This document shows, one piece after another, positions 6,592-46,502 of a stretch of DNA of 46,502 nt. A program made the translations under genes and the position numbers. Position 1 is the first letter of the stretch. Each line of letters starts with the position of its first letter. The notes under the pieces are model-generated. The model worked only from the letters and a program-made list of their open reading frames with translations. It did no database searches and was not told the origin of the DNA. Source of the DNA: Asanoa siamensis (GTDB lineage Bacteria > Actinomycetota > Actinomycetes > Mycobacteriales > Micromonosporaceae); the NCBI RefSeq assembly GCF_016862555.1, contig NZ_BONE01000060.1, positions 1 to 46,502 of the forward strand, in the 5' to 3' direction.

Positions 6592-7893
6592 TCAGGCGGT
6601 GCCCAGCACCGGCGGTGGGACGTCGTCGGAGTCGCGCCAGACCAGGTCGTCTTCGGTCAGCCAGGTGGTGTGCTCGTCGGTCTCGTCCTCGTGCGGCTGG
6701 GTGCCCCGCGCCCCGGCCGCCGCCTGCGCCGCCCGACCCGCCGCCGACGTGCTGTTGCCCCGACCCTCCGGGCCGGTCGCGCCCTGGGCGCCACCGCCCG
6801 GTCGCCCGGCCGCCGACTGCGACCCGCTCACCCCGACGCCGCGGCCACCCGCACCCCGCGGACCCGTCGCCGCCTGCCCCGAGGCCGGGGACGGCTTGAC
6901 CGTGTTGGCGCCCTTGCCCGTCGCGGACGCCGCGGTGGTCGGGCCGCCGCCCGGCGTGCCGTTGGTGACCTGGCCCAGCACCCCGCCCGGCGGCAAGGTG
7001 CTCGACGTCAGACCGGTGCCGGTGACCGAGGTCGCGTTGGGCATGCCGCCCAGTTGCGTCAGCGCGCCGACCGTCACCGCGCCGGCCGCCAAAGCCCCTT
7101 CGCCACTGCCGGTGAGCTGCGAGCCGACCTGCGTGCCGGTGTCGACGGTCGCCGCGCCCGGCGTCCCCGGCCCACCGGCCAGGCCAGGGTCGGCGGCCAC
7201 GTGCGCCGGGTTGTGGATGCCCCCGGTCTGGCCGGACCCACCCGGACCGGTGCCCGGATCGAGCGCCGGCGCCCCGACCCGCGGCCCGCCGGCCGGCGTC
7301 GACGCCCGATGGGGGTCACCCTCCGGCAGCCCGGACGGCGGCGCCGGGAACGGCCGCCAGTCAGCCTGGTCGGCTACCTCGTATTGGGCGGCCACGCCGG
7401 CGACCAGCGCCGCCATCCGCTCCCGGGCGCGTTCCTTCTCTTCCTCGTCCTGGTTGTGGCCCATGATGCCGCCGATCAGCGCGCCACCGACCGTGCCCAC
7501 CGGCCCCGCGACCGAGCCCTTGCCCGCACCGCTGACGACCCCGCTCCACAGCTTGTCGTTGTCGTCGTGCTCCTCGGGCGTCTCGGCCTTGGCCTGCGCG
7601 TCGGCCAGGGCCGTGCTCATCTGGCTCAGGCCGCTGTGGGTCGCCAGGAAGTTGCCCGACAACTGGCGCGAGTAGGTGGCGATCGTGCCGACCCGGTCGC
7701 GGAACTCGGTGCCGGCCGCGCCTTCCCAGCCCGCCAGCACCCGGGACAGGTCGCGGTCGATCGCGCCGGCCAGGGTGTCGGCCTGCTGCTCGGCGGACTT
7801 CCACGCCGCGATCGTGTTCTCGACCTGGCACGGGACGCCCGCGAACAACTGGTCGTAGAGCTCCCGGTGACTCATCCCCGCGTAGTCAGCCAT
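6592..7893 (-). CDS. Large T7SS substrate-like protein, WXG/PPE-like head and Gly-rich tail
   Basis: 433 aa. Residues about 1-110 are helical and WXG100/PPE-like, with VLAGWEGAAGTEF carrying a W-x-G turn. Residues about 125-150 are a Gly/Ala-rich hydrophobic segment (SGAGKGSVAGPVGTVGGALI). From about 180 the protein is Gly/Pro/Thr/Ala-rich and probably disordered. It ends with TTWLTEDDLVWRDSDD followed by VPPPVLG. That ending is shared with the second large protein at 22029-23405. The start overlaps the small partner's stop by 8 nt, and CTGGGGGG lies just upstream. Context (downstream of eccB) and domain order suggest a secreted ESX substrate or surface component that pairs with the upstream small protein. 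That role is inferred. Confidence 0.75.
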   Translation of the reverse strand: MADYAGMSHRELYDQLFAGVPCQVENTIAAWKSAEQQADTLAGAIDRDLSRVLAGWEGAAGTEFRDRVGTIATYSRQLSGNFLATHSGLSQMSTALADAQAKAETPEEHDDNDKLWSGVVSGAGKGSVAGPVGTVGGALIGGIMGHNQDEEEKERARERMAALVAGVAAQYEVADQADWRPFPAPPSGLPEGDPHRASTPAGGPRVGAPALDPGTGPGGSGQTGGIHNPAHVAADPGLAGGPGTPGAATVDTGTQVGSQLTGSGEGALAAGAVTVGALTQLGGMPNATSVTGTGLTSSTLPPGGVLGQVTNGTPGGGPTTAASATGKGANTVKPSPASGQAATGPRGAGGRGVGVSGSQSAAGRPGGGAQGATGPEGRGNSTSAAGRAAQAAAGARGTQPHEDETDEHTTWLTEDDLVWRDSDDVPPPVLGTA

Positions 7894-8248
7894 TGCTCGA
7901 ACCCCCCAGAGCCCGCTGCACCCCGCCGAGCACGTCGGCGATGTCGGCCGAGTTGGCCGCGTTGCGCGCCTCGGTCGTGCGGTAGTTGCTGATGATCGTG
8001 TCGGTGGCCGACCGTGCCGCGCGGATCGCGTCGATCAGGCGCCGGACCCGGGCCACCTGCGCGTCCTGCCGCGTGTCATGCGTGTCGGTGATCCGCTTGG
8101 CGTCGGCGAACCCGCCCAGCGGCGGCCGGGCGGCGGCGGTGCCGTTGACGGTCCGCAGCAGCGTCTCGGCCTCGGTCAGGCGCGCGTCGAGCGCTCGACG
8201 GAAGTCTTCCAGTGAGAGAATGTCGACCTTGGTCTGTTCGTTCCCCAT
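7886..8248 (-). CDS. Small ESX-like helical partner protein with YxxxE signal
   Basis: 120 aa, mostly helical, with no membrane segment. Near the C-terminus it has NYRTTEARNAANSADI. Y-R-T-T-E matches the general T7SS secretion signal YxxxD/E, which in characterised systems sits on one member of a helical heterodimer. A similar NYAAAEERNA occurs in the small partner of the second pair (23433-24050). It is followed, with an 8-nt overlap, by the large WXG/PPE-like protein, consistent with a co-secreted pair. I see no strong ribosome site. Confidence 0.72.
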   Translation of the reverse strand: MGNEQTKVDILSLEDFRRALDARLTEAETLLRTVNGTAAARPPLGGFADAKRITDTHDTRQDAQVARVRRLIDAIRAARSATDTIISNYRTTEARNAANSADIADVLGGVQRALGGSSNG

Positions 8249-8364
8249 CGATCAGATGTCCAGTCTCTATCCGGGTGGCCCCGCTCGCCGGGGTCGCCGA
8301 GCCGATTAAGAACCTCACGCTCCACAGTCGAGACTAGCGCTAGGCAACGACACTTTTCGACCCG
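8249..8364 (-). promoter_or_regulatory. Leader region between eccB and the substrate pair
   Basis: This 116-bp gap holds a perfect palindrome CTAGCGCTAG (8334-8343) and a GGCCCCG/CGGGGTC hairpin (about 8278-8296). It may carry a separate promoter or processing site for the small/large substrate pair. No convincing -35/-10 pair was found. Confidence 0.3.
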
Positions 8365-9768
8365 TCAACCCGTCGGCCGGACGAACCGCTGCGCCGCCGC
8401 CGGATCCAGCACCGGACCGTTCGGTACCAGCGCCAGCAGCGCCGACGGGACCGGCAACGGATCGACACCGCCATAACCGAGCGCCGTCGCCGCGTTGACC
8501 TGACCGTCGTTCCGCAACGGGAACTTGAGGCCCTGATCGGTGATCAGATACGTCGTCGTGTCGACGCGTACGCCCGGCGCCGGCTCGACCCGGACCAGCG
8601 CGCCCTTGCCGCTCGCGACGATCACCCGGTCGGCGGTGGCCACGCCGTCAGCGCCCTGACCAGCGGCGGAGCCGGCACCGCCCGGCAGACCCGCCGGCAC
8701 CGCGGCATAGCGGTGGACCGCGGGCGCGACCCCACCGGTCTGCACCGCGCACAACAGCGGTGGCGCCGCCTGCCCGGGCGCGATCGCCGGCAACGTCCGC
8801 GGGAAACCGGCCGGCTCCACCGACGCGTCCCGGACCAGCACCGCCGCCGCCTCAGCGGCCGAGATCACGGTCTCCTGCGGATCGTCGGCCAGCAGCAGCT
8901 TCGCCGACACGTCGCCGATCGTCACCAGGCCCTCGCGCGTCAGCACGTAGCGCTGCTGCCCCGCCCGGTAGACCTGGCCGATGTCACCCCGCGCCCCGCC
9001 GACCCGCCGCGGGCTGGCCTGCCCCGCACCGTCGATCACCGGCTGCCGCAGGTCAGGCCCGCCGGTGATGCCGTTGAGCAACGCCTTGCCGACCGGCACC
9101 GGGTCGACCGCCGCCAACTCGAGCGCGGTCAGCGTGATCTCGTCGACCACCCGGAACCGGCGATCACCGAAGACCACATAGGTCGCCGCGGGCCCGCTCG
9201 TGTCGGCCGGCGTGCTGACCAGCAGTGCCGTGTCAGGCCCGAGCGACGTGCCGCCGGCCGGCTCGCGACCCACGAACACCATCGTCGTCGGCCCGCCGGC
9301 ACCCTGCGGCGGCGCGCCGCACACGCTCCACGGCAGGCCGAGCAGCGCGCCACGATCGGGCGGTGGGTCCGGCGCGCCCGGGATGCCGATCGGCTCACCC
9401 ACCGCGTACGCACCGAGCGAGTCGCGCGACATCTGCCGGATGGCCGGTTTGTCGTTGCCCGCGAAGAGCAGGGCGGAACTCCAGTTGAGTACGGGGTGCA
9501 GCGTCTCGTCGACCAGCACGTACCGTGCGCCGGTCTCCCGCATGATGATCAGCTCACCGGTCGCCGGCCGGCCGCCGCCGGGGTTGACCAGCCCGATCAC
9601 GCCGATGATCGCGAACACGATGGCGGCCACCATGACACTGCCGAACATCGCGAGCCCGAACCGCCGCATGGGCAGCTCGGTGGTCTCGGGCTCGCCGCTG
9701 AGCAGGCCCGACACGATGCGCCGGGTGATGAACCGGTGCGCCTGCACCTGTTCCTGCCGGCTGCGCAT
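8365..9768 (-). CDS. eccB: Type VII secretion membrane protein EccB
   Basis: 467 aa. The N-terminus MRSRQEQVQAHRF followed by ITRRIVSGLL is the EccB cytosolic signature. One transmembrane helix lies at about 39-61, and the large periplasmic domain follows. Two cysteines in that domain (WSVCGAPP and LLCAVQ) match the conserved EccB disulfide pair. An upstream extension in frame (from 9903) is rejected because the ATG at 9768 has the ribosome site CCTGGGGAGGG and the expected family start. EccB is part of the EccBCDE inner-membrane core of ESX machines. It diverges from eccE, and the small/large substrate pair follows downstream. Confidence 0.95.
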   Translation of the reverse strand: MRSRQEQVQAHRFITRRIVSGLLSGEPETTELPMRRFGLAMFGSVMVAAIVFAIIGVIGLVNPGGGRPATGELIIMRETGARYVLVDETLHPVLNWSSALLFAGNDKPAIRQMSRDSLGAYAVGEPIGIPGAPDPPPDRGALLGLPWSVCGAPPQGAGGPTTMVFVGREPAGGTSLGPDTALLVSTPADTSGPAATYVVFGDRRFRVVDEITLTALELAAVDPVPVGKALLNGITGGPDLRQPVIDGAGQASPRRVGGARGDIGQVYRAGQQRYVLTREGLVTIGDVSAKLLLADDPQETVISAAEAAAVLVRDASVEPAGFPRTLPAIAPGQAAPPLLCAVQTGGVAPAVHRYAAVPAGLPGGAGSAAGQGADGVATADRVIVASGKGALVRVEPAPGVRVDTTTYLITDQGLKFPLRNDGQVNAATALGYGGVDPLPVPSALLALVPNGPVLDPAAAQRFVRPTG

Positions 9769-9850
9769 CGACGACCCTCCCCAGGCTCGCGGCCACCCTA
9801 CGATAGGTGACTCGTCGTACGCTGTCCCCGCCCCTGGGGAGGAGGACGCG
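9769..9850. promoter_or_regulatory. Divergent eccB/eccE promoter region with mirrored CCTGGGGAGG elements
   Basis: 82 bp. CCTGGGGAGGG reads toward eccB (9775-9785, minus strand) and CCTGGGGAGGAGG toward eccE (9833-9845, plus strand), each just before the start codon. A minus-strand -10 candidate TATCGT (9800-9805) with GGGACA 17 bp upstream would serve eccB. A plus-strand TACGCT (9818-9823) could serve eccE. Confidence 0.5.
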
Positions 9851-10945
9851 ATGCGCACGGCTGTGTGGCGACTGGTTGTCGCCGAGATCGCCATCGTCGC
9901 CATCGCCCTCGCCGCGTTCAGCGGATCCCTCGTCGTCCTGGCCGTGGCCGTGGTGCTCGCGCTGCTGGCGGTCGGTCTCGGCTACGCGCGCCGCGACGGT
10001 CGATGGTGGACCGCCTCGCTGCGCACCCGTCGCCGCTGGCGGCGCAGGCGGGGAGCCGGTCGCGCGCTCCAGGAACATTCGATCAACGGGTACGACGATC
10101 GCGGCACCAGTGTCGGCATCGGCTGCGACGCGGGCGGCTGGTACGCGGCCGTCGCGATCGCACCCCCGCGCGGTGTCAACGGCGCCCGCGGCGTCCCTGT
10201 CCCGGTCGACCGCCTCGCCGAGTTGCTCGACGACGTGACCCTGCCGGTCAGCGGCATCCAGGTGGTCAGTTGGGCCGCGCCCGCGCCGCACCACCTGCTG
10301 CCCAGCCAGGTGCCCAGCGTCGCCTCCTACCAGCAGCTCGCCGCGGATCTGCTGCCCGCCGGCCCGGCCCCGATCGACCAGCGCGACTGGGTCGCGGTGC
10401 GGCTCGACGTGGCCGACGGCGCTGTCGCCGCGCACCGCCGAGGCGGTGGTGTCGACGGCGTGCACCGCGCGGTCGCCGCCGCCGTCGGCCGGGTGAGCAA
10501 GGCGCTGAACAGCGTCGGCGTCGCCACGGAGATCCTCGGCCCGCAGCAGCTCGCGGCGGCCGTGCGGCTCTGCGCCGGCGTCGACGAGCAGGAGCCGCCC
10601 GCCGAGGACTGGACCACGTTCTACGCCGCCGGCCTGCACCACCTGGCATTCGAGGTGCAGGGTCTGCCGCCGCGGGAGGCGCCGCTGTCCGCGCTGCTGC
10701 GCGCACCCGCCGCCCAGGTGGTGCTCTCGGTCGACCTGCGCCCCAGGCCCGGCCGCGACGACGACCGCGGCCCGGTGCTGGCGCGCACGGTGGTGCGGAT
10801 GTCGGCCCCGGCACCGCAGCTACCCGACCTGGCCCGCACGCTGTCGGGCCGGGCGAGCCAACTCGGCCTGCGACTACGCCGGCTCGACGGGTTGCAGGGC
10901 CCGGCCGCCTACGCCAGCGCCCCGACGGGCGGTGGCGCATGGTGA
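9851..10945 (+). CDS. eccE: Type VII secretion protein EccE
   Basis: 364 aa. Two N-terminal hydrophobic helices (about 5-23 and 26-45) are followed by a basic stretch (RTRRRWRRRRGAGR) and a cytosolic domain, the EccE architecture. The motif GYDDRGTSVGIGCDAGGWYAAV is typical of the region after the helices in actinobacterial EccE. The ATG at 9851 has GGGGAGGAGG at about 9836-9845; upstream in-frame extension is not needed. EccE sits at the periphery of the EccBCDE complex. The last codons overlap the ATG of the next gene by 7 nt (10939-10945). Confidence 0.88.
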   Translation: MRTAVWRLVVAEIAIVAIALAAFSGSLVVLAVAVVLALLAVGLGYARRDGRWWTASLRTRRRWRRRRGAGRALQEHSINGYDDRGTSVGIGCDAGGWYAAVAIAPPRGVNGARGVPVPVDRLAELLDDVTLPVSGIQVVSWAAPAPHHLLPSQVPSVASYQQLAADLLPAGPAPIDQRDWVAVRLDVADGAVAAHRRGGGVDGVHRAVAAAVGRVSKALNSVGVATEILGPQQLAAAVRLCAGVDEQEPPAEDWTTFYAAGLHHLAFEVQGLPPREAPLSALLRAPAAQVVLSVDLRPRPGRDDDRGPVLARTVVRMSAPAPQLPDLARTLSGRASQLGLRLRRLDGLQGPAAYASAPTGGGAW

Positions 10946-11601
10946 TCGGCCACCCGCTCCCACCCGCGTCGGCCGGCGCGATCGGTCTGCGCGCCGAGCA
11001 CACGGGCCTGCTGCTCGGCCGGGGTGCTGACGGTGACGCCGTGCTGCTGCGCCTGTTCCGGCCGCAGCCGACGCGGATCGCCCTGATCGGCGGCCTGTGG
11101 CTGGCCCGGGTCGCCGTCTTCCGCGCGCTGGCACTCGGTGCGCGGGTCTTCGTCCGCACCTCCGACGAGCGGCGCTGGCACGGCCTCGGCGAGGTCGCGG
11201 TCGGCGACCCCGATCGCGTACGCGTCGTCACCGGTGGCCGTCCCACGGTCGCCGGCCGGTTCGGCGAGCCCGTGCTGCACGTACACGATGTCGAAGGTCA
11301 GCGGGTTTTCGATCTGCGCCCCGACGAGGCCTGGCAGGCCACGTTGACGATCTCCGCGCAGCTCACCGACACCGCGGCCGACGCGCTCTCCGTGGCCGAT
11401 GCCGCGCTGGTGCAACGGATGTGGGCACAGCAGGCGGTCTACGTGGCGGCCCGGCTGGGCGTCGACCCCGACGCGGCGTCCGAAGTGGAGACTCTGCCCG
11501 ACGACACGGTCGCGCTGCTCAGCGACGGCCAGGTCAGGGTCGCCTGGGTCTCCGCGACCGACATCGAGCAGCAGATGTTCGGCCCGCCCGGCCGCCTCTA
11601 G
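10939..11601 (+). CDS. Unrecognised T7SS-locus protein, 220 aa
   Basis: 220 aa with no clear signal peptide. A mildly hydrophobic stretch (IGGLWLARVAVFRALALG, about residues 47-64) may be an amphipathic or buried helix. A beta-rich middle follows (VRVVTGGRPTVAGRFG, VLHVHDVEG), and a helical C-terminus. I do not recognise a family. The start overlaps eccE by 7 nt, and the stop overlaps the convergent eccD stop in a CTAG palindrome (11598-11601). Its fixed place between eccE and eccD suggests a cytosolic accessory of this T7SS, but that is only inferred. Confidence 0.8.
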   Translation: MVIGHPLPPASAGAIGLRAEHTGLLLGRGADGDAVLLRLFRPQPTRIALIGGLWLARVAVFRALALGARVFVRTSDERRWHGLGEVAVGDPDRVRVVTGGRPTVAGRFGEPVLHVHDVEGQRVFDLRPDEAWQATLTISAQLTDTAADALSVADAALVQRMWAQQAVYVAARLGVDPDAASEVETLPDDTVALLSDGQVRVAWVSATDIEQQMFGPPGRL

Positions 11602-12995
11602 CTCTCCCGGATGGCCCGGATCCAGCCGTAGAGGCCGCTGGCCCAGACCACCAGCGGCAGGATGCCGAGAATCAGCAGGATCTCCAGGATGTCGACGGTA
11701 CGGCCGAGCAGCGGCGACTGGCGGCGTCCGGCGCCGAGGGCCGCGCCGACGCTGATCGCGGCGACCACCAGGAGCCCCACGACGATCAGGGCGAGCCGGC
11801 CGACCATGCTCGCGTCGACGAAGCCGGCGACCGCGAGCGCGGCGATGGCGATCACCCCGGCGCCGAGCAACGGCAGCCGTTGCGCGATCGAGATGAACCA
11901 GCGCGCCCGCATGAACAGCAGCAGGCCGAGCGCCGCGCAGAGCGCGTACCCGGCCGTCCCTCCGGTCGTGACCAGCGCGATCGCGGATCCGGCCGCGATC
12001 AGGCCGACCGCCCCGAGCATGCCGGCGAGCAGGTCGTCGGCGCGCTCGGCGAGCCGCAGCACCCGCGCGCCGTCGACGGTCTCGGTGTCGCTGCGCAGGT
12101 CGTCGGTGCCGGACGGCACGGTCGGCACGGGCAGCCCGGCCAGCCGGTAGGACATCATCGGCATCGCCGGCACCACCACCAGGGCGAGCGCGAGGACGAT
12201 CGAGGCGGCCCCGGCCGGTGTGGCACCGAAGATCATGCAGATGGCGGCGGCCACGCCCAGCCCGAAGGCCGCGGCGGTGGCGGCGAGGAAGACCTGGCCG
12301 TACGCGGCGACGGCGGCACTGCCCGCGACGGCTGACACGAAGACCACGGCGGCCGCGCAGACCAGCAGGTCAGGGGCCGCCAGGGCGCCGAGTCCGCGGT
12401 CACCCGCGAACAGGGTCAGTCCGCCGACGGCGGCGTACACCATGGACACCAGGGCGAGCAGCAAGCCGTTGCGGTGATCGCCGAAGCCGCGCGCCGCGAC
12501 GGCCGAGGTCGCGAGCAGGAGCAGCGCGAGTACGAGGGCGATGGCCGGCGCGACGCCGCGGGGCGGGCCGGTCAGCGCGAGGGCGACGGCACCGCCGACC
12601 AGCGCGGCCGCGCCCAGGCCGAGGCCGAAGACCTTGGTGCTGCTGGCCGACCAGCGACCGGGTCGCATCCGGGTGGCGGTGGCGATCGCGTCGACCACGT
12701 CGTCGAAGACGGGCTCGGGCTGTTCGCCGCCGCGCGGGCGCAGGTAGAGCAACTCGCCGTCGCGGATCTCCAACTGGGCCGGCGACTGGGCGATGTCGAG
12801 CGCCGGGCCGGCCAACCGGGCCAGCGACCAGCCGTACCGGCCGTCGGGCTCGTCGGCCAGGCGATCACCGGCGAACCGCAGCAGCGTCGGCAACACGTCA
12901 CCGAGCGGCACATCGGACGGTAGCGCGAGGTCGACGCGGGTCTTCGGAGCCACGATCGTCACGCGGCTCGATCCGGCCGTCGGGGCGCCCGCCAC
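11598..12995 (-). CDS. eccD: Type VII secretion integral membrane protein EccD
   Basis: 465 aa. A ubiquitin-like N-terminal domain (about 8-90: [41 protein letters not shown]) is followed by about eleven transmembrane helices to the end. This is the EccD layout; EccD dimers form the membrane cavity of the ESX core. The GTG at 12995 is chosen because GAGGAGG lies 5 nt upstream; in-frame upstream sequence to 13250 overlaps eccC antisense and is rejected. The stop shares four bases with the convergent neighbour's stop. It diverges from eccC. Confidence 0.93.
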
Positions 12996-38352: not shown

Positions 38353-38897
38353 TGAGTATCGCGGCGTTGGTGGATCTTGTTGAGGGGCTTGTCGCCGGCG
38401 ATCAGACCGAGGCCGACCAGCGCGCCGACGTCCTCGCCTGGCTGCGCGACACCGACGACGTCTATCGGCGGGCCAAGCCCGACACGCCACCCCGCCATCT
38501 CGTTTCCTACGTCGTGCCCGTCGACCGACGCGACGGCAGCATCCTGTTGATCGACCACATCAACGCCGGGCTCTGGCTGCCGCCAGGCGGCCATGTCGAG
38601 GTCAAAGAGGACCCCGCCGAGACCGCCCGGCGTGAGGCGCTTGAGGAACTCGGCCTGGACGTCACCGTAGGAAAGCCGATCTTCATCACCGTGACCACCA
38701 CCGTCGGCATCGACAAGGGGCATACCGACGTGAGCCTCTGGTATCCCGTCCTCGCCGACCGTCACCAACCGCTCGTCACCGACGCGGGTGAGTTCACCGA
38801 GGCGCGGTGGTGGTCGCTCGACGACGTCGACCGCGCGGATCCCGGGCTCTTCGACCCGCACCTCGGACGCTTCCTGCGCAAGCTCCGTCAGAGGTAG
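38352..38897 (+). CDS. Nudix hydrolase
   Basis: 181 aa. An intact Nudix box (GGHVEVKEDPAE through REALEELGL, residues about 78-101) with the GX5EX7REUXEEXGU pattern. An N-terminal helical region (1-40) precedes it. The substrate, a nucleoside diphosphate derivative in the family, cannot be read from sequence. No Shine-Dalgarno sequence is seen. The 3' end overlaps the convergent AAA gene by 10 bp. Confidence 0.93.
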   Translation: MSIAALVDLVEGLVAGDQTEADQRADVLAWLRDTDDVYRRAKPDTPPRHLVSYVVPVDRRDGSILLIDHINAGLWLPPGGHVEVKEDPAETARREALEELGLDVTVGKPIFITVTTTVGIDKGHTDVSLWYPVLADRHQPLVTDAGEFTEARWWSLDDVDRADPGLFDPHLGRFLRKLRQR

Positions 38898-39997
38898 AAG
38901 CCGCTCGACGCCGGGGTCACCGGCGTGGCCACCGACGGCTTGCCGTCGCGCAGAGCCAGCAGTTCGGCCAGCGTCGCACCGTACGCGCCGACGCCCGTCG
39001 ACGTGCCGAGCCAGGCCGATGCCTGCTCGAACGGCAGCGGGCCGACCTCGATCTGCGCCATGCACCGGCCCGGCCGCAGCACCGCGGGGTGCAGGCGGCC
39101 GATCTTCTCGTTGGTGGTCACCGCGACGATCACGTTGCCGCCCTGGCCGAGGAGGCCGTCGGTCAGGTTGAGCAGGCGGGAGAGCTGCTGGGTGTTGGTC
39201 GCCAGCCCGTCGGCGCGGATCAGGTCGTCGCTGTCCTCGAGCAGCAGCAGCCGCCAGCGGCGGCTGTCGGTCGGGCCGCCGGCCGCGACCTTGGCCAGGT
39301 ACGACGGGTCCGTGAACAGCTGCTGGGGGTCGATCACCAGGTCGACCTGGCACCAGTCGCGCCACGCGCGGGCCAGCGAGCGCAGCGCCGTGGTCTTACC
39401 GGTGCCGGGGGAGCCGTGCATGATCAGCAGGCGGCCGTGCACGGTCGTGGGGGTGAGGTCCACCAGGCGCTCGATCGCGTCGCCGGCGGTCTTCTCGTAG
39501 TTGTCGCGGATCGTCGACCACTCGTCGCACGCCACGTTCCGGGCGGTGCGGGTCGGGCCCATCTGCGACTGGTGCCAGAAGCCGATCTCCACCTCGCCGG
39601 TGTCGACCTTCTCCGGCTCGGTGGCGCCGGTCGTGCATTCCGCGAGTACGGACTCCGCGAGCTCCTCCGTGACCGCGGTCACGGTGATCGAGGCGCCGCC
39701 CGTACGCCAGCGGACCGCGCGGACCGTCCAGCCCTCGCCGATCGCCAGGCGCGCGTCGCGGCCCTCGTCGACCGCGACCCGGGCGAGCTTTGCGCCGACG
39801 GGGAGCAGCGTGGCTTCGGCACGGACGCGGTCGAGGCGCTTGGTCCGCGCCCACGGCTGGTCGCCGGAGACGAAGCTGGACAGCGCCAGCGCGTCGACGA
39901 CGTCGGACGGCACGTCCATGTCGTCGAAGTGCAGCATGCGACCTAGGGGACCGGTGTGTTCGGGACCGCCACCGGTGGGCATTCGGCCATCGAGCAT
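38888..39997 (-). CDS. AAA-family ATPase with DUF5925-like N-terminal region
   Basis: 369 aa from ATG 39997. The N-terminal part (about 1-150) resembles the DUF5925 region that precedes AAA domains in actinobacteria. Walker A is GSPGTGKTTALR, Walker B LLLLEDSDDL, sensor-like VAVTTNEKIGRLHPAVLRPGR with the arginine finger region. Closest in pattern to CbbX/BCS1-like AAA proteins. The starts at 40069 and 39982 are alternatives; no clear ribosome site decides. Role unknown. Confidence 0.85.
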   Translation of the reverse strand: MLDGRMPTGGGPEHTGPLGRMLHFDDMDVPSDVVDALALSSFVSGDQPWARTKRLDRVRAEATLLPVGAKLARVAVDEGRDARLAIGEGWTVRAVRWRTGGASITVTAVTEELAESVLAECTTGATEPEKVDTGEVEIGFWHQSQMGPTRTARNVACDEWSTIRDNYEKTAGDAIERLVDLTPTTVHGRLLIMHGSPGTGKTTALRSLARAWRDWCQVDLVIDPQQLFTDPSYLAKVAAGGPTDSRRWRLLLLEDSDDLIRADGLATNTQQLSRLLNLTDGLLGQGGNVIVAVTTNEKIGRLHPAVLRPGRCMAQIEVGPLPFEQASAWLGTSTGVGAYGATLAELLALRDGKPSVATPVTPASSGFYL

Positions 39998-40097
39998 GCA
40001 CCGATAGTGACTACTCTCGGCAACGATCGTCCACCCGGTATGCACGATGTGTGGCCTTTGTCGCGGCAACCGAAGCAGAAACGATCACTGACAGTGA

Positions 40098-43665: not shown

Positions 43666-43713
43666 TTATTCTCAGCTTGAGTTATTCTTAGGCAGAGAAG
43701 TTCTTAGGGCGAG
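43666..43713 (+). promoter_or_regulatory. Three 16-bp direct repeats, likely NrtR-family operator
   Basis: TTATTCTCAGCTTGAG (43666-43681), TTATTCTTAGGCAGAG (43682-43697) and AAGTTCTTAGGGCGAG (43698-43713) are head-to-tail with no gap. Each has an internal inverted half (for example CTCA-GCT-TGAG or TTCT...AGAA). They end 15 nt before the GTG of the Nudix-wHTH gene and are AT-rich against the surrounding DNA. Autoregulation by the downstream product is inferred. Confidence 0.65.
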
Positions 43714-43728
43714 AAGGACAGGGGAGCT

Positions 43729-44484
43729 GTGGTCAACGAGCAGGAGTTCCTGGCCGGTTACGACCCGCGGGCCTACCCCGCCGTCGCCGTCACGGTCGAC
43801 GTGGTCGCCCTGACCATCCGCGACAACGAGCTCCAGGTCCTGCTGATCCAGCGCGCCGCGCCGCCGTTCGCCGGCTTCTGGGCCCTGCCGGGCGGCTTCG
43901 TCCGGCCCGAGGAGGACCTCGGCGTCGCCGCCCGTCGGGAGTTCGCCGAAGAGACCGGCCTCGGCGGCGAGCCGCTGCGCCGGGTGCATTTCGAGCAGCT
44001 CGCCTCGTACGGCACACCCGAGCGCGACCCCCGGATGCGGATCTTCTCGATCGCCTACCTCGCCTTCGCGCCCGACCTGCCCGAGCCGACCGCCGGTTCC
44101 GACGCCGGCGACGCCCAGTGGCTCGCGCTGACCGCGCTGCCGACCCGCGAGCTGGCCTTCGACCACCGCAAGATCATCGAAGACGGCATCGAGCGCGCCC
44201 GCTCGAAGCTCGAATACACGCCGCTGGCGACCCGGTTCGTCGGCGAGGAGTTCACCATCGCCGACCTGCGGGCCGTCTACGAGACGGTGTGGGGCCACCC
44301 GCTGCACGCCGGCAACTTCCACCGCAAGGTGCTCTCGGTCCCCGGGCTCGTGGAAGGCACCGGCGCCACCACCGAGCACGGCGGCCCCCGCGGCGGGCCC
44401 CGCGCCCGCCTCTACCGCGCCGGCGACGCCCGGCTGCTGCACCCGGCCCTGCTCCGGCCCGCCCGAGAGGAGACCGTCCGATGA
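43729..44484 (+). CDS. NrtR-like Nudix-winged-helix transcriptional regulator
   Basis: 251 aa from GTG, with GGGGAG upstream. The N-terminal Nudix domain (about 15-145) has an intact Nudix box (GGFVRPEEDLGVAARREFAEETGL spans about 64-88; core REFAEE). The C-terminal winged helix (about 175-220: FTIADLRAVYETVWGHPLHA, NFHRKVLSVPGLVEGTG) is the NrtR type. NrtR proteins sense ADP-ribose or related NAD metabolites and repress NAD genes. The catalytic box being intact means hydrolysis cannot be excluded. It overlaps the next gene by 4 nt (ATGA). A disordered tail of about 30 residues ends the protein. Confidence 0.88.
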   Translation: MVNEQEFLAGYDPRAYPAVAVTVDVVALTIRDNELQVLLIQRAAPPFAGFWALPGGFVRPEEDLGVAARREFAEETGLGGEPLRRVHFEQLASYGTPERDPRMRIFSIAYLAFAPDLPEPTAGSDAGDAQWLALTALPTRELAFDHRKIIEDGIERARSKLEYTPLATRFVGEEFTIADLRAVYETVWGHPLHAGNFHRKVLSVPGLVEGTGATTEHGGPRGGPRARLYRAGDARLLHPALLRPAREETVR

Positions 44485-45446
44485 CGACCATCGACGAGGC
44501 GATTCGTCTGGTCCACGCGGCCAACAGCGACGAGGAACTGTTCGGCTCCACCGACCCGCACCGCGGCTACCTGCGGCTGGCCGCGCTGCTGCACCCCGAC
44601 CGGGCCGCGCCGTCGGCCCGGGCGGCGGCCACCGACGCGTTCGTCGCGCTGACCAACCGCTGGCGGGCCCGGGGCACGGTGCTCTTCGGCCGCTACCGGG
44701 TCGGCGGGGTGGCGCACACCGGCGACCTCGCCAACCTCTACGCGATCGGCCACGGGCTGTTCCTCAAGCAGCCGCGGCTGCCCGCCAACAACGACCTGAT
44801 GGAGCGCGAGGCGGCGGCGCTGCGCCGGATCGCCGCCGAAGGCGACCCGCGCTACCTGCCCTACGTGCCGCGCCTGGTCGACACGTTCCGGCACCGTGAC
44901 CCGGGCAGCGGCGCGGAGCGCCGGGTCAACGTGCTCGGCTCCGTGCCCCACCTGTGCAGCGTGGCCGACCTCATCCGGATGAAGCCCGAAGGACTCGACC
45001 CGCGCGACGCCGCGTGGATCTGGCGGCGGCTGCTGGTCGCGCTGGGCCTGGCGCACCGGGCCGGCGTGGTGCACGGCGCCGTGCTGCCCGAGCACATCCT
45101 GGTCGAGACCACCGACCACGGCGTGGTGCTGGTCGACTGGTGCTACTCCGTGATCGACGGTCTCGACCACGTGCCGGCGATGGTTCCGCGCTACGCCGAC
45201 TGGTACCCGCCGGAGGTGCACAAGCGACAGACGCCGAGCCCGGGCACCGACATCGCGATGGCCGCGCGGTCGATGACCGCGCTGATGGGCGGGCACGCGC
45301 CGGCGGCGCTGGTGGCGTTCGCCCGAGGGTGTGCGCTCCCGTCGCAGCAGTCCCGGCCGGACGACGCATGGGAGCTTCTCGCCGAACTCGACGGCGTGCT
45401 CGAAGGACTCTACGGCGAGCGGAAGTTCCGCCCGCTCAACCTTTAA
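44481..45446 (+). CDS. J-domain-like/pseudokinase fusion protein
   Basis: 321 aa. Residues about 5-65 look like a J-domain: helix, the HPD tripeptide (LLHPDRA, residues 38-40) and a third helix (AATDAFVALTNRW). Residues about 70-300 are kinase-like (YRVGGVAHTGDLANLYAI; a catalytic-loop position reading HGAVLPEHIL near 197; VLVDWCYS where DFG would be). The catalytic-loop Asp is replaced by Ala and the Asn by His, so it is probably a pseudokinase or nucleotide-binding scaffold. It overlaps the NrtR-like gene by 4 nt. Function unknown; it may recruit an Hsp70 or a client to the operon's VWA and PurA-like proteins. Confidence 0.75.
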   Translation: MTTIDEAIRLVHAANSDEELFGSTDPHRGYLRLAALLHPDRAAPSARAAATDAFVALTNRWRARGTVLFGRYRVGGVAHTGDLANLYAIGHGLFLKQPRLPANNDLMEREAAALRRIAAEGDPRYLPYVPRLVDTFRHRDPGSGAERRVNVLGSVPHLCSVADLIRMKPEGLDPRDAAWIWRRLLVALGLAHRAGVVHGAVLPEHILVETTDHGVVLVDWCYSVIDGLDHVPAMVPRYADWYPPEVHKRQTPSPGTDIAMAARSMTALMGGHAPAALVAFARGCALPSQQSRPDDAWELLAELDGVLEGLYGERKFRPLNL

Positions 45447-45457
45447 GGAGGCCCGCG

Positions 45458-46420
45458 ATGGGCAGCGGAGTCTGGTCAACCGACGTCTACGATGCCGCCG
45501 ACCGCTACCGGCGCTCGACCGGCCGGAGCGCCTTCGCCTACAGCGACAGCGGCGCACGCACCGTCCACCCCACCCTCGACCCGCACAACACCGTCCGGGA
45601 GAGCCGGGACTCGACCGAGCACCCGGAGTCGCTCTCGATCGCCGTGATCTTCGACGTCACCGGCTCCATGGGTGACGTGCCCCGGGTGCTCCAGACCAAG
45701 CTGCCCAAGCTCCTCAGCCTCCTGCTGCGCAAGAACTACGCCCGCGACCCGCAGATCCTCTTCGGCGCGGTCGGGGACGCCACCTGCGACCGGGTGCCGC
45801 TGCAGATCGGCCAGTTCGAGTCCGACAACCGGATGGACGACCACCTCGGCCGGATCGTGCTCGAGGGCGGTGGCGGCGGGCAGATGTCCGAGTCGTACGA
45901 GCTGGCGTTCTACTACCTCGCCCGGCACACCGAGCTGGACTGCTTCACCAAGCGCGGCCGGCGCGGCTACCTGTTCGTGATCGGCGACGAGCTTGCGTAC
46001 GACCGGGTCAAGGCCCGTGAGGTGCGCAACGTCTGCGGCGACGACCTGCGCGAGGACATCCCGCTGCGGCGGATCGTCTCGGAGGTGCGCCGCAAGTACG
46101 ACACCTACTACCTGCTCCCGAAGGGCGCCAACTATGCCGGCAACGGCACTGTGCTGGACTTCTGGCGCGGGTTGCTCGGCCAGAACGCGATCGAGCTCGA
46201 CGACCCGGACGCGGTCAGCGAGACGATCGCCCTCCTGGTCGGGCTCGGCGAGTCGGCCATCGACCTCGAGTCGGGGCTGGCCGACCTGGCCGACGCGGGC
46301 AGCACGGTGACCAGCGCCGTGTCCTCCGCGTTGGCGCCGGTCGATCGGGGCGGTCGGGTCCTCTCCACCTGGGGCCTGCCGACCACGCTGCAGGGCGACG
46401 ACCGGATCAGCCGGCTATGA
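45458..46420 (+). CDS. VWA-domain protein
   Basis: 320 aa, with AAGGAGG before the ATG. A von Willebrand factor A fold: the metal-site motif DVTGSMGDVP (D66; a DxTxS form of DxSxS), later conserved GGGGGQMSESYELAFYYL and LFVIGDELAYDRV. No signal peptide, so it is cytosolic. VWA proteins typically act as metal-dependent docking partners of AAA or other enzymes. The ATGA overlap with the next gene argues for co-translation. Specific role unknown. Confidence 0.85.
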   Translation: MGSGVWSTDVYDAADRYRRSTGRSAFAYSDSGARTVHPTLDPHNTVRESRDSTEHPESLSIAVIFDVTGSMGDVPRVLQTKLPKLLSLLLRKNYARDPQILFGAVGDATCDRVPLQIGQFESDNRMDDHLGRIVLEGGGGGQMSESYELAFYYLARHTELDCFTKRGRRGYLFVIGDELAYDRVKAREVRNVCGDDLREDIPLRRIVSEVRRKYDTYYLLPKGANYAGNGTVLDFWRGLLGQNAIELDDPDAVSETIALLVGLGESAIDLESGLADLADAGSTVTSAVSSALAPVDRGGRVLSTWGLPTTLQGDDRISRL

Positions 46421-46502
46421 ACCACGTGCTGGTAGCCGACCTGGGATACGGCGACGCGGGCAAGGGGACCGTCGTCGACTGGTTGTGCGCGAAGGGGATC
46501 GA
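46417..46502 (+). CDS. PurA-like protein, truncated by the window end
   Basis: Only the first 28 codons are in view. They read VLVADLGYGDAGKGTVVDWL, which aligns with the GDEGKG P-loop-like opening of adenylosuccinate synthetase. The catalytic Asp and the Lys are kept but Glu is Ala. It overlaps the VWA gene by 4 nt. A divergent paralogue of PurA, not the housekeeping enzyme, is likely. Confidence 0.7.
   Translation, partial: MNHVLVADLGYGDAGKGTVVDWLCAKGI

Follow-up and report, generated by a model that had tools for sequence, protein, structure and literature searches.

A VWA and PurA-like gene module with a J-domain pseudokinase, recurrent in bacteria and large phages and found behind an NrtR-like regulator in Asanoa siamensis

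The systems in print that appear closest to the locus described here are the NrtR/WYL-vWA operons centered on an ADP-ribosylglycohydrolase (ARG), described as host systems against viruses in actinobacteria and proteobacteria (Viruses 2022, PMC9503650), in which a Nudix-helix-turn-helix (Nudix-HTH) repressor and a vWA chaperone are encoded in one operon. A comparable pairing is found at the 3' end of a 46,502-nucleotide stretch of Asanoa siamensis DNA (assembly GCF_016862555.1, 8.78 Mb in 219 contigs; contig NZ_BONE01000060.1, G000:C60:1-46502), referred to here as the window. Open reading frame (ORF) analysis identified four head-to-tail genes at window positions 43729 to 46502, predicted to encode an NrtR-like regulator, a J-domain/pseudokinase protein (gene and protein labeled KIN), a VWA protein, and a protein similar to adenylosuccinate synthetase (PurA). 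Whereas the ARG-centered systems carry an ARG enzyme, and section 3.8 of that paper includes no J-pseudokinase, the present operon encodes the PurA-like protein and KIN. The genes are joined by ATGA overlaps at 44481 to 44484 and 46417 to 46420 and by a gap of 11 nt at 45447 to 45457, and the coupling of four genes claimed in an earlier interpretation of the DNA (the sequence-only reading) is therefore borne out by the ORF coordinates.

TerY-type triads and other vWA/kinase operons also place a stand-alone vWA gene beside a kinase-fold gene, as is the case here. A passage in eLife 2020 (PMC7159879) mentions kinase-PP2C-vWA sets. Compared with the TerY triads, the kinase-like domain in this operon is predicted to be dead and is fused to a J domain, a putative PurA-like ligase is present, and no PP2C phosphatase was found by Pfam among the operon proteins. 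No description of the four-gene set was found in the open-access literature (subscription literature was outside the search), which agrees with its earlier designation as undescribed. One phage paper (PMC9476963) lists kinase and PurA-like genes separately in part of its text, and another (PMC12884076) presents a tree of 481 viral PurA homologs that probably includes the phage PurA-like proteins considered here, which are not discussed in its section 24. All of the folds are known, but the set fails a defining feature of each tested system family and would thus, as far as the open-access literature shows, be new as a system.

The module was recurrent in bacteria and large phages. VWA homologs were encoded by at least 578 bacterial stretches and at least 238 viral stretches (genome and viral contigs, respectively), and locus counts were based on the best 80 of the 578 and the best 80 of the 238; because the best-scoring rows were kept, both sets lean toward close relatives, and some of the "viral" contigs, 33 of which (of the 80 kept) were at least 100 kb in length, may be prophage or plasmid. 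Bacterial loci contained the regulator (78 of 80), KIN (74 of 80), and the PurA-like gene (79 of 80), in the exact order regulator-KIN-VWA-PurA-like in 69. Viral loci contained KIN (66 of 80) and the PurA-like gene (78 of 80), in the exact order KIN-VWA-PurA-like in 63, and the regulator in 1 of 80. At a distance of 300 nt or less from the VWA gene, the PurA-like gene was present at 79 of the 80 bacterial loci and at 53 of the 80 viral ones; the viral count rose to 68 at up to 1 kb and to 78 at up to 6 kb. KIN lay no more than 1 kb from the VWA gene at 73 bacterial and 60 viral loci. On these linkage counts, the VWA and PurA-like genes form the core of the module, KIN is common, and the regulator is almost exclusively bacterial. 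The four families proposed in the sequence-only reading are therefore real and co-occur, but their sharing with large phages had been missed, as had the occasional absence of KIN and the near confinement of the regulator to bacteria. The only viral locus of the 80 with Nudix-profile matches (L117) is a contig of 416 kb with the order Nudix-VWA-Nudix-PurA-like-KIN.

Among 50,697 phage records, the VWA protein was found in 207, including 188 named Mycobacterium phage, 10 Rhizobium, and 6 Vibrio; KIN was found in 191 and PurA-like proteins in 225, some of which are plain PurA. A single Vibrio phage and a single Rhizobium phage were fetched, and each has both a VWA gene and a PurA-like gene. Plasmid records encoding the VWA protein numbered 21, and the PurA-like gene was beside the VWA gene in 7 of 8 fetched plasmid loci (L010 was the exception). 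A reverse search from the PurA-like protein identified the gene in 28 of 296 genomes of the class (up to 6 candidates per genome; hand-counted from rows of more than 225 bits; in two cases the match was broken into two pieces). In all 27 genomes other than that of the window, a VWA gene lay directly beside it, as judged from coordinates, with one VWA protein matching only in part and another frame holding a stop. A strong KIN match (E below 1e-27) was found in 26 of these 27 genomes, in one case on another contig; the automatic tally of 27 counts ordinary kinases. Presence was patchy, at 109 of 200 genomes in the family of A. siamensis. A scan of the phylum with the VWA protein gave at least 2 of 396 genomes, an undercount because only 5 candidates per genome were scored.

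The PurA-like gene begins at 46417 on the plus strand with a GDAGKG motif and is cut by the contig end at 46502. When the sequence was extended past this point, contig C34 of the same assembly was found to start within a PurA-family reading frame (G000:C34:2-1195), and this continuation matched PF00709 (9.8e-48) and phrog_1211 (4.9e-61). Both contig ends align within one gene of Asanoa iriomotensis (L017, 7844 to 8045 and 8055 to 8454), which places 9 nt of unsequenced DNA between C60 and C34. This relative carries all four genes on a single contig, and its VWA protein is 93% identical to that of the window; no named organism in the scan was closer than the Asanoa species.

The PurA-like proteins share with PurA (PF00709) the fold, the catalytic Asp and His, and the EGAQ motif. 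PurA numbering and residue roles, except for Asp13 and R303, were placed by motif and are presumed here. The catalytic Asp was present in 168 of 169 rows and the catalytic His in 167 of 168, the other row being a gap in each case; the difference in total reflects L014, a canonical PurA counted in the 169-row alignment and dropped from the 168-row counts. (L014, LR756501, is a 735-kb uncultured phage whose PurA groups with the housekeeping one.) Substrate positions were rebuilt in nearly all rows: the Asp-loop Thr was Gln in 163 of 168, the Val after TTR was His in 167 of 168, the Asn before AGH was Gln in 166 of 168, and the Lys of TKxD was present in 0 of 168, being His or Cys in 163, with the Asp of that motif kept in 166 of 168. 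GTTGRG was replaced by GS[C/V]G-x-G in most rows, with the motif Arg in 2 of 169. The aspartate loop was one residue shorter than in PurA, and the residue after its Gly was Arg in 34 of 168 rows. In Escherichia coli PurA, R303 contacts O2' of inosine monophosphate (IMP) and aspartate (PMC8342488, section 8). In PurZ, as described in part of the literature on that enzyme, a Val beside an Arg abuts the 2' side of the ribose, and an invariant His of the PurA-like proteins is taken, from motif placement, to occupy this position. These differences from PurA agree with the earlier view of a divergent PurA-like protein.

The genome encodes a separate housekeeping PurA (G000:C42, 606 bits), and the possibility that the PurA-like protein is the standard or only PurA, which the sequence-only reading had named as damaging to its claim, was rejected. 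Each of the 28 class genomes that carry the PurA-like gene likewise had a further PurA-family match. The protein therefore differs from PurA both at the Asp-loop Thr, the Val after TTR, the Asn before AGH, and the TKxD Lys and in being an extra copy with a fixed VWA partnership. PurZ and PurZ0 of phages with Z-DNA are, like the PurA-like proteins of this study, phage-borne divergent PurA homologs, and in both Bixzunavirus records fetched the PurA-like protein is annotated as "2-aminooxy" or "PurA-like" adenylosuccinate synthetase (the VWA protein is a "hypothetical protein"). A base-modification enzyme such as PurZ, acting in the synthesis of 2-aminoadenine DNA, nevertheless seems highly improbable and was rejected: Asp13 is replaced by Ser in 147 of 147 phage PurZ proteins (PMC12884076, section 24) and is kept here, and the family profile gave PurZ structures 30 to 45 bits, compared with a maximum of 206 bits for PurA structures. 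The rebuilt positions, the retained Asp, and these profile scores argue that the PurA-like protein is neither a housekeeping PurA nor a PurZ.

The residue changes also bear on a role as a PurA bypass that would be insensitive to guanosine tetraphosphate (ppGpp) or feedback and would sustain adenosine monophosphate (AMP) synthesis under stress or infection. Housekeeping PurA is a known target of ppGpp, and loss of the guanine-recognition Lys from a protein that keeps the PurA fold and catalytic core would suit such a bypass, as would the presence of purB and purQ 6 to 10 kb downstream in this genome. However, the changes extend to positions that lie close to aspartate and ribose in PurA, the VWA partner is left unexplained, and in three other genomes with housekeeping purA and the PurA-like gene on one contig (G676, G684, and G699) the two are at least hundreds of kilobases apart; this role is considered quite improbable. 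Genes for purB (adenylosuccinate lyase), purQ, and, by eye, purL occupy positions 6997 to 12945 of locus L003 (G000:C34), 6 to 13 kb downstream of the PurA-like gene. In two genomes of the family of A. siamensis, G003 and G045, housekeeping purA and the PurA-like gene are approximately 9 to 13 kb apart.

The VWA gene (45458 to 46420, plus strand) encodes a protein without a match in Pfam or NCBIfam, and 0 of 48 sequences of its family matched any Pfam model. Its assignment to the VWA group, made earlier from sequence, held up on the MIDAS motif (DxTGS at residues 66 to 70) and on an I-domain-like fold in the predicted structure. No AAA+ gene, as in MoxR-vWA chaperones, was found among the operon genes. 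A DUF5925-AAA ATPase gene is located 3.7 kb upstream of the operon (38888 to 40069, minus strand), and homologs were near the cassette at 11 of the 80 bacterial loci, 10 of them of Actinoplanes type and one from Asanoa. This distribution was too local for a fifth component, which was rejected, and the ATPase may be loosely associated with the VWA protein.

KIN (44481 to 45446, plus strand) was predicted to combine a J domain (44490 to 44672, residues 4 to 64) with a kinase-like domain. For the window protein, Pfam reported no J domain at an E value of 1 or less, but the HPD motif is present (residues 38 to 40), four J-domain helices flanking the HPD loop were seen in the secondary structure of the predicted model, DnaJ PF00226 matched 25 of 50 homologs, and the family profile matched solved DnaJ J domains at 1.4e-6. 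HPD was present in 128 of 150 KIN sequences; the region is a gap in 13 viral rows, possibly as an artifact of trimming. The catalytic Asp of HRD was present in 1 of 150 sequences and is Ala200 in the window protein, consistent with a pseudokinase across the family. Both the J domain and the missing catalytic Asp noted in the sequence-only reading were thereby substantiated. None of the three phage records searched encoded its own HSP70, and in such phages host DnaK would be used. Met-rich, similar-looking proteins without a Pfam match are encoded in the Vibrio phage (L012, 6141 to 6860) and the Rhizobium phage (L013, 5663 to 6454), 5' of the VWA/PurA-like pair and at the place of KIN in other phages.

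The regulator gene (43729 to 44484, plus strand) encodes a Nudix domain and an NrtR-type winged helix, both above Pfam cutoffs (NUDIX, 4.5e-22; NrtR_WHD, 1.6e-10), in agreement with the nucleotide-sensing-type Nudix-winged HTH protein proposed earlier, and it keeps an intact Nudix box by pattern match. Against the equivalog model of the ADP-ribose-responsive NtrR (NCBIfam NF050029), it scored 132.6 bits, below the cutoff of 400. Just 5' of the gene, at 43669 to 43713 on the plus strand, the three operator-like repeats reported in the sequence-only reading were recovered as degenerate copies of TTCT[CT]A-N4-GAG starting at 43669, 43685, and 43701 (a pitch of 16 nt); by chance, 0.00 occurrences of such a tandem pattern would be expected in the window. 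Of 78 bacterial loci, 61 had TCTCA-N4-GAG no more than 130 nt 5' of the regulator gene, against a background expectation of 0.0011 per 130 nt, and 38 had two TCTCA half-sites spaced by 16 nt. No second tandem operator was found elsewhere in the genome, whether an exact match was required or as many as 2 mismatches to the strict form were allowed, in a search that covered tandem sites and not single ones genome-wide; the backwards control of the mismatch-tolerant search gave one match per strand. A wider regulon is therefore not indicated, and the conservation and uniqueness of the operator support the NrtR-like protein as a putative autoregulator of its own operon.

The NrtR of Mycobacterium smegmatis is also a Nudix and winged HTH regulator encoded before its own operon and, in the parts of eLife 2019 (PMC6800001) that bear on this comparison, is freed from DNA by 50 mM ADP-ribose. 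It differs in its operator, a 23-bp palindrome rather than repeats with a 16-nt pitch, and in the other genes of its operon, and the Nudix box is intact here. The mycobacterial box GTTTTCGA-N7-TCGAAAAC had 0 matches in the window at up to 3 mismatches. ADP-ribose as the ligand of the present regulator is a guess by family. The NAD-linked pathway of the sequence-only reading was not supported: what points to it is the regulator family and, weakly, annotated salvage genes in one Rhizobium phage. In that phage (RHph_Y65; L013, 2456 to 4131), genes annotated as phosphoribosyltransferase-like and as nicotinamide mononucleotide (NMN) adenylyltransferase/NUDIX lie 3 to 4 kb 5' of the pair, and Pfam reported only a ComF-like phosphoribosyltransferase and a NUDIX domain in these genes.

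Partner identities were strongly correlated across loci (Mantel r, 0.91 to 0.93; 105 loci, thinned from 140 to remove similar ones; 0 of 500 permutations as high), with a contribution from shared descent. A rapidly built tree of 111 PurA rows was most diverse on the viral side; bacterial rows were placed at several points inside the viral diversity, and the starred branches forced at least 3 changes of label between bacterial and viral. Transfer from phage to bacterium is thus likely from tree shape; given the arbitrary root and the possible prophage or plasmid contigs, it is unproven. The chromosomal place of the cassette was the same across Asanoa and Micromonospora-type loci and differed in other genera. 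On C34, a TetR gene lies 3' of the PurA-like gene on the opposite strand, facing the operon. A link to fatty acids was considered and rejected: MaoC and TetR/SCP2/acyl-CoA dehydrogenase genes flank the cassette only in the Asanoa and Micromonospora-type loci and are read as reflecting place and not function. A constant fourth phage gene was also rejected, as the most frequent family besides KIN occurred in 14 of the 83 viral loci. The recurrent viral neighbors, each family being named from one representative, were R2K ATP-grasp (14 of 83), DNA ligase (10 of 83), HAD RNA-repair type (9 of 83), and exoribonuclease (7 of 83). Within phage loci L128 to L167, the R2K-clade ATP-grasp gene is 3' of the cassette and the HAD "Swiss Army Knife" RNA-repair-type gene is 5', and in Bixzunavirus MoMoMixon a polynucleotide-kinase-type phosphatase gene is two genes upstream of KIN. 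None of these neighbors is constant, and they are a hint to the phage setting.

Such neighbors would also fit a conflict system like the ARG-centered NrtR/vWA operons, in which the enzyme would repair or counter a nucleotide-based phage attack and the phage copies would be countermeasures. The shared logic of a Nudix-HTH repressor and a vWA chaperone (PMC9503650, section 3.8) favors this explanation, together with the patchy presence of the module (109 of 200 family and 28 of 296 class genomes), its sharing with phages, weak KIN matches to defense-system kinases (MkoA, 2.8e-9; PD-T4-6, 3.1e-7), and the R2K ATP-grasp or HAD genes nearby in some phages. Yet no ARG domain was found by Pfam among the operon proteins, the VWA and PurA-like proteins had no PADLOC match, and the chromosomal place is constant in Asanoa and Micromonospora-type loci, and a conflict role is regarded as unlikely. 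Because the neighboring genes were clustered mostly without names, a loose link to defense may exist.

The preferred explanation, held tentatively at slightly less than an even chance, is that of a phage-spread ligase machine in which the VWA protein and the J-domain pseudokinase would be gating or chaperone parts and to which bacteria would have added a nucleotide-sensing autorepressor. The PurA-like protein would be a nucleoside triphosphate (NTP)-dependent ligase with the adenylosuccinate synthetase fold that keeps the purine-activating core and joins a different nucleotide and/or amine; it may activate a 6-oxopurine with NTP and join to it an amine that is perhaps other than aspartate. The VWA protein, as the nearly constant partner, could bind a client or the ligase through its Mg-MIDAS, and KIN would be an accessory scaffold whose J domain recruits host DnaK. 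Large phages would carry the bare machine, and bacteria, having most likely acquired it from phages repeatedly, would have added the NrtR-like repressor, which may sit on the tandem operators before its own operon until a rising nucleotide signal lifts repression and the VWA protein, KIN, and the PurA-like protein are made as one unit. The gene linkage, folds, residue patterns, operator-like repeats, and distribution of the module are well shown, and the steps of this mechanism are inferred from the anatomy of the gene set. In a more specific form, considered possible and somewhat speculative, a phage-invented machine would make a novel purine conjugate (not adenylosuccinate or 2-aminoadenine) or link such a conjugate to a client protein; domestication of the machine by bacteria would have occurred more than once, with the NrtR-like repressor added as a nucleotide trigger. 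The operon, its co-occurring families, the extra PurA, and the pseudokinase of the sequence-only reading are retained in this mechanism, as is its proposal, which we also infer, that the VWA protein and the J-pseudokinase chaperone or gate a ligase; the phage sharing is new, and no NAD link is assumed.

Several observations weigh against the ligase machine or parts of it. The PurA tree was built quickly, its deep branches are weak, and its root is arbitrary. No KIN gene was detected at 6 of the 80 bacterial loci or at 14 of the 80 viral loci, some of which lie at the edge of a contig. An unfiltered profile likewise detected none near the pair in the single Vibrio phage and the single Rhizobium phage, and recruitment of DnaK would thus not be universal; in addition, three KIN proteins have a zinc ribbon in place of the J domain (L007, 5849 to 6958; L168; and L170). 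(The ribbon reads CPQC...CSYC, and "viral" contigs L168 and L170 resemble the Variovorax plasmid locus L007.) The strict operator motif was missing from 17 of 78 bacterial loci. A later Arg of the aspartate loop was conserved in 166 of 168 rows; given the shorter loop and the placement of gaps, its counterpart among the PurA Arg residues is uncertain, and the protein may still bind aspartate to some extent. The Glu of GDEGKG, which matters in E. coli PurA, was Ala in 77 of 79 bacterial rows and was kept in 60 of 78 viral rows, and the bacterial branch could therefore be inactive or differ in mode.

This Glu-to-Ala change, the changes at several substrate recognition positions, and the joining of the protein to another dead enzyme, the pseudokinase, would be compatible with a pseudoenzyme or nucleotide sensor that switches a VWA/pseudokinase complex without forming a product. 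A pure binder, however, would not need the catalytic Asp and His, which are kept in every readable row, and the Glu is retained by most viral members; a sensor role is accordingly rated as doubtful.

The set is common yet unnamed, with the VWA protein in 207 of 50,697 phage records and in at least 578 bacterial and at least 238 viral stretches. If the enzyme of the proposed ligase machine works, PurA chemistry would have a third branch alongside those of PurA and PurZ, and, if the proposed mechanism is true, a J-domain pseudokinase and a VWA protein would be tied to nucleotide metabolism.

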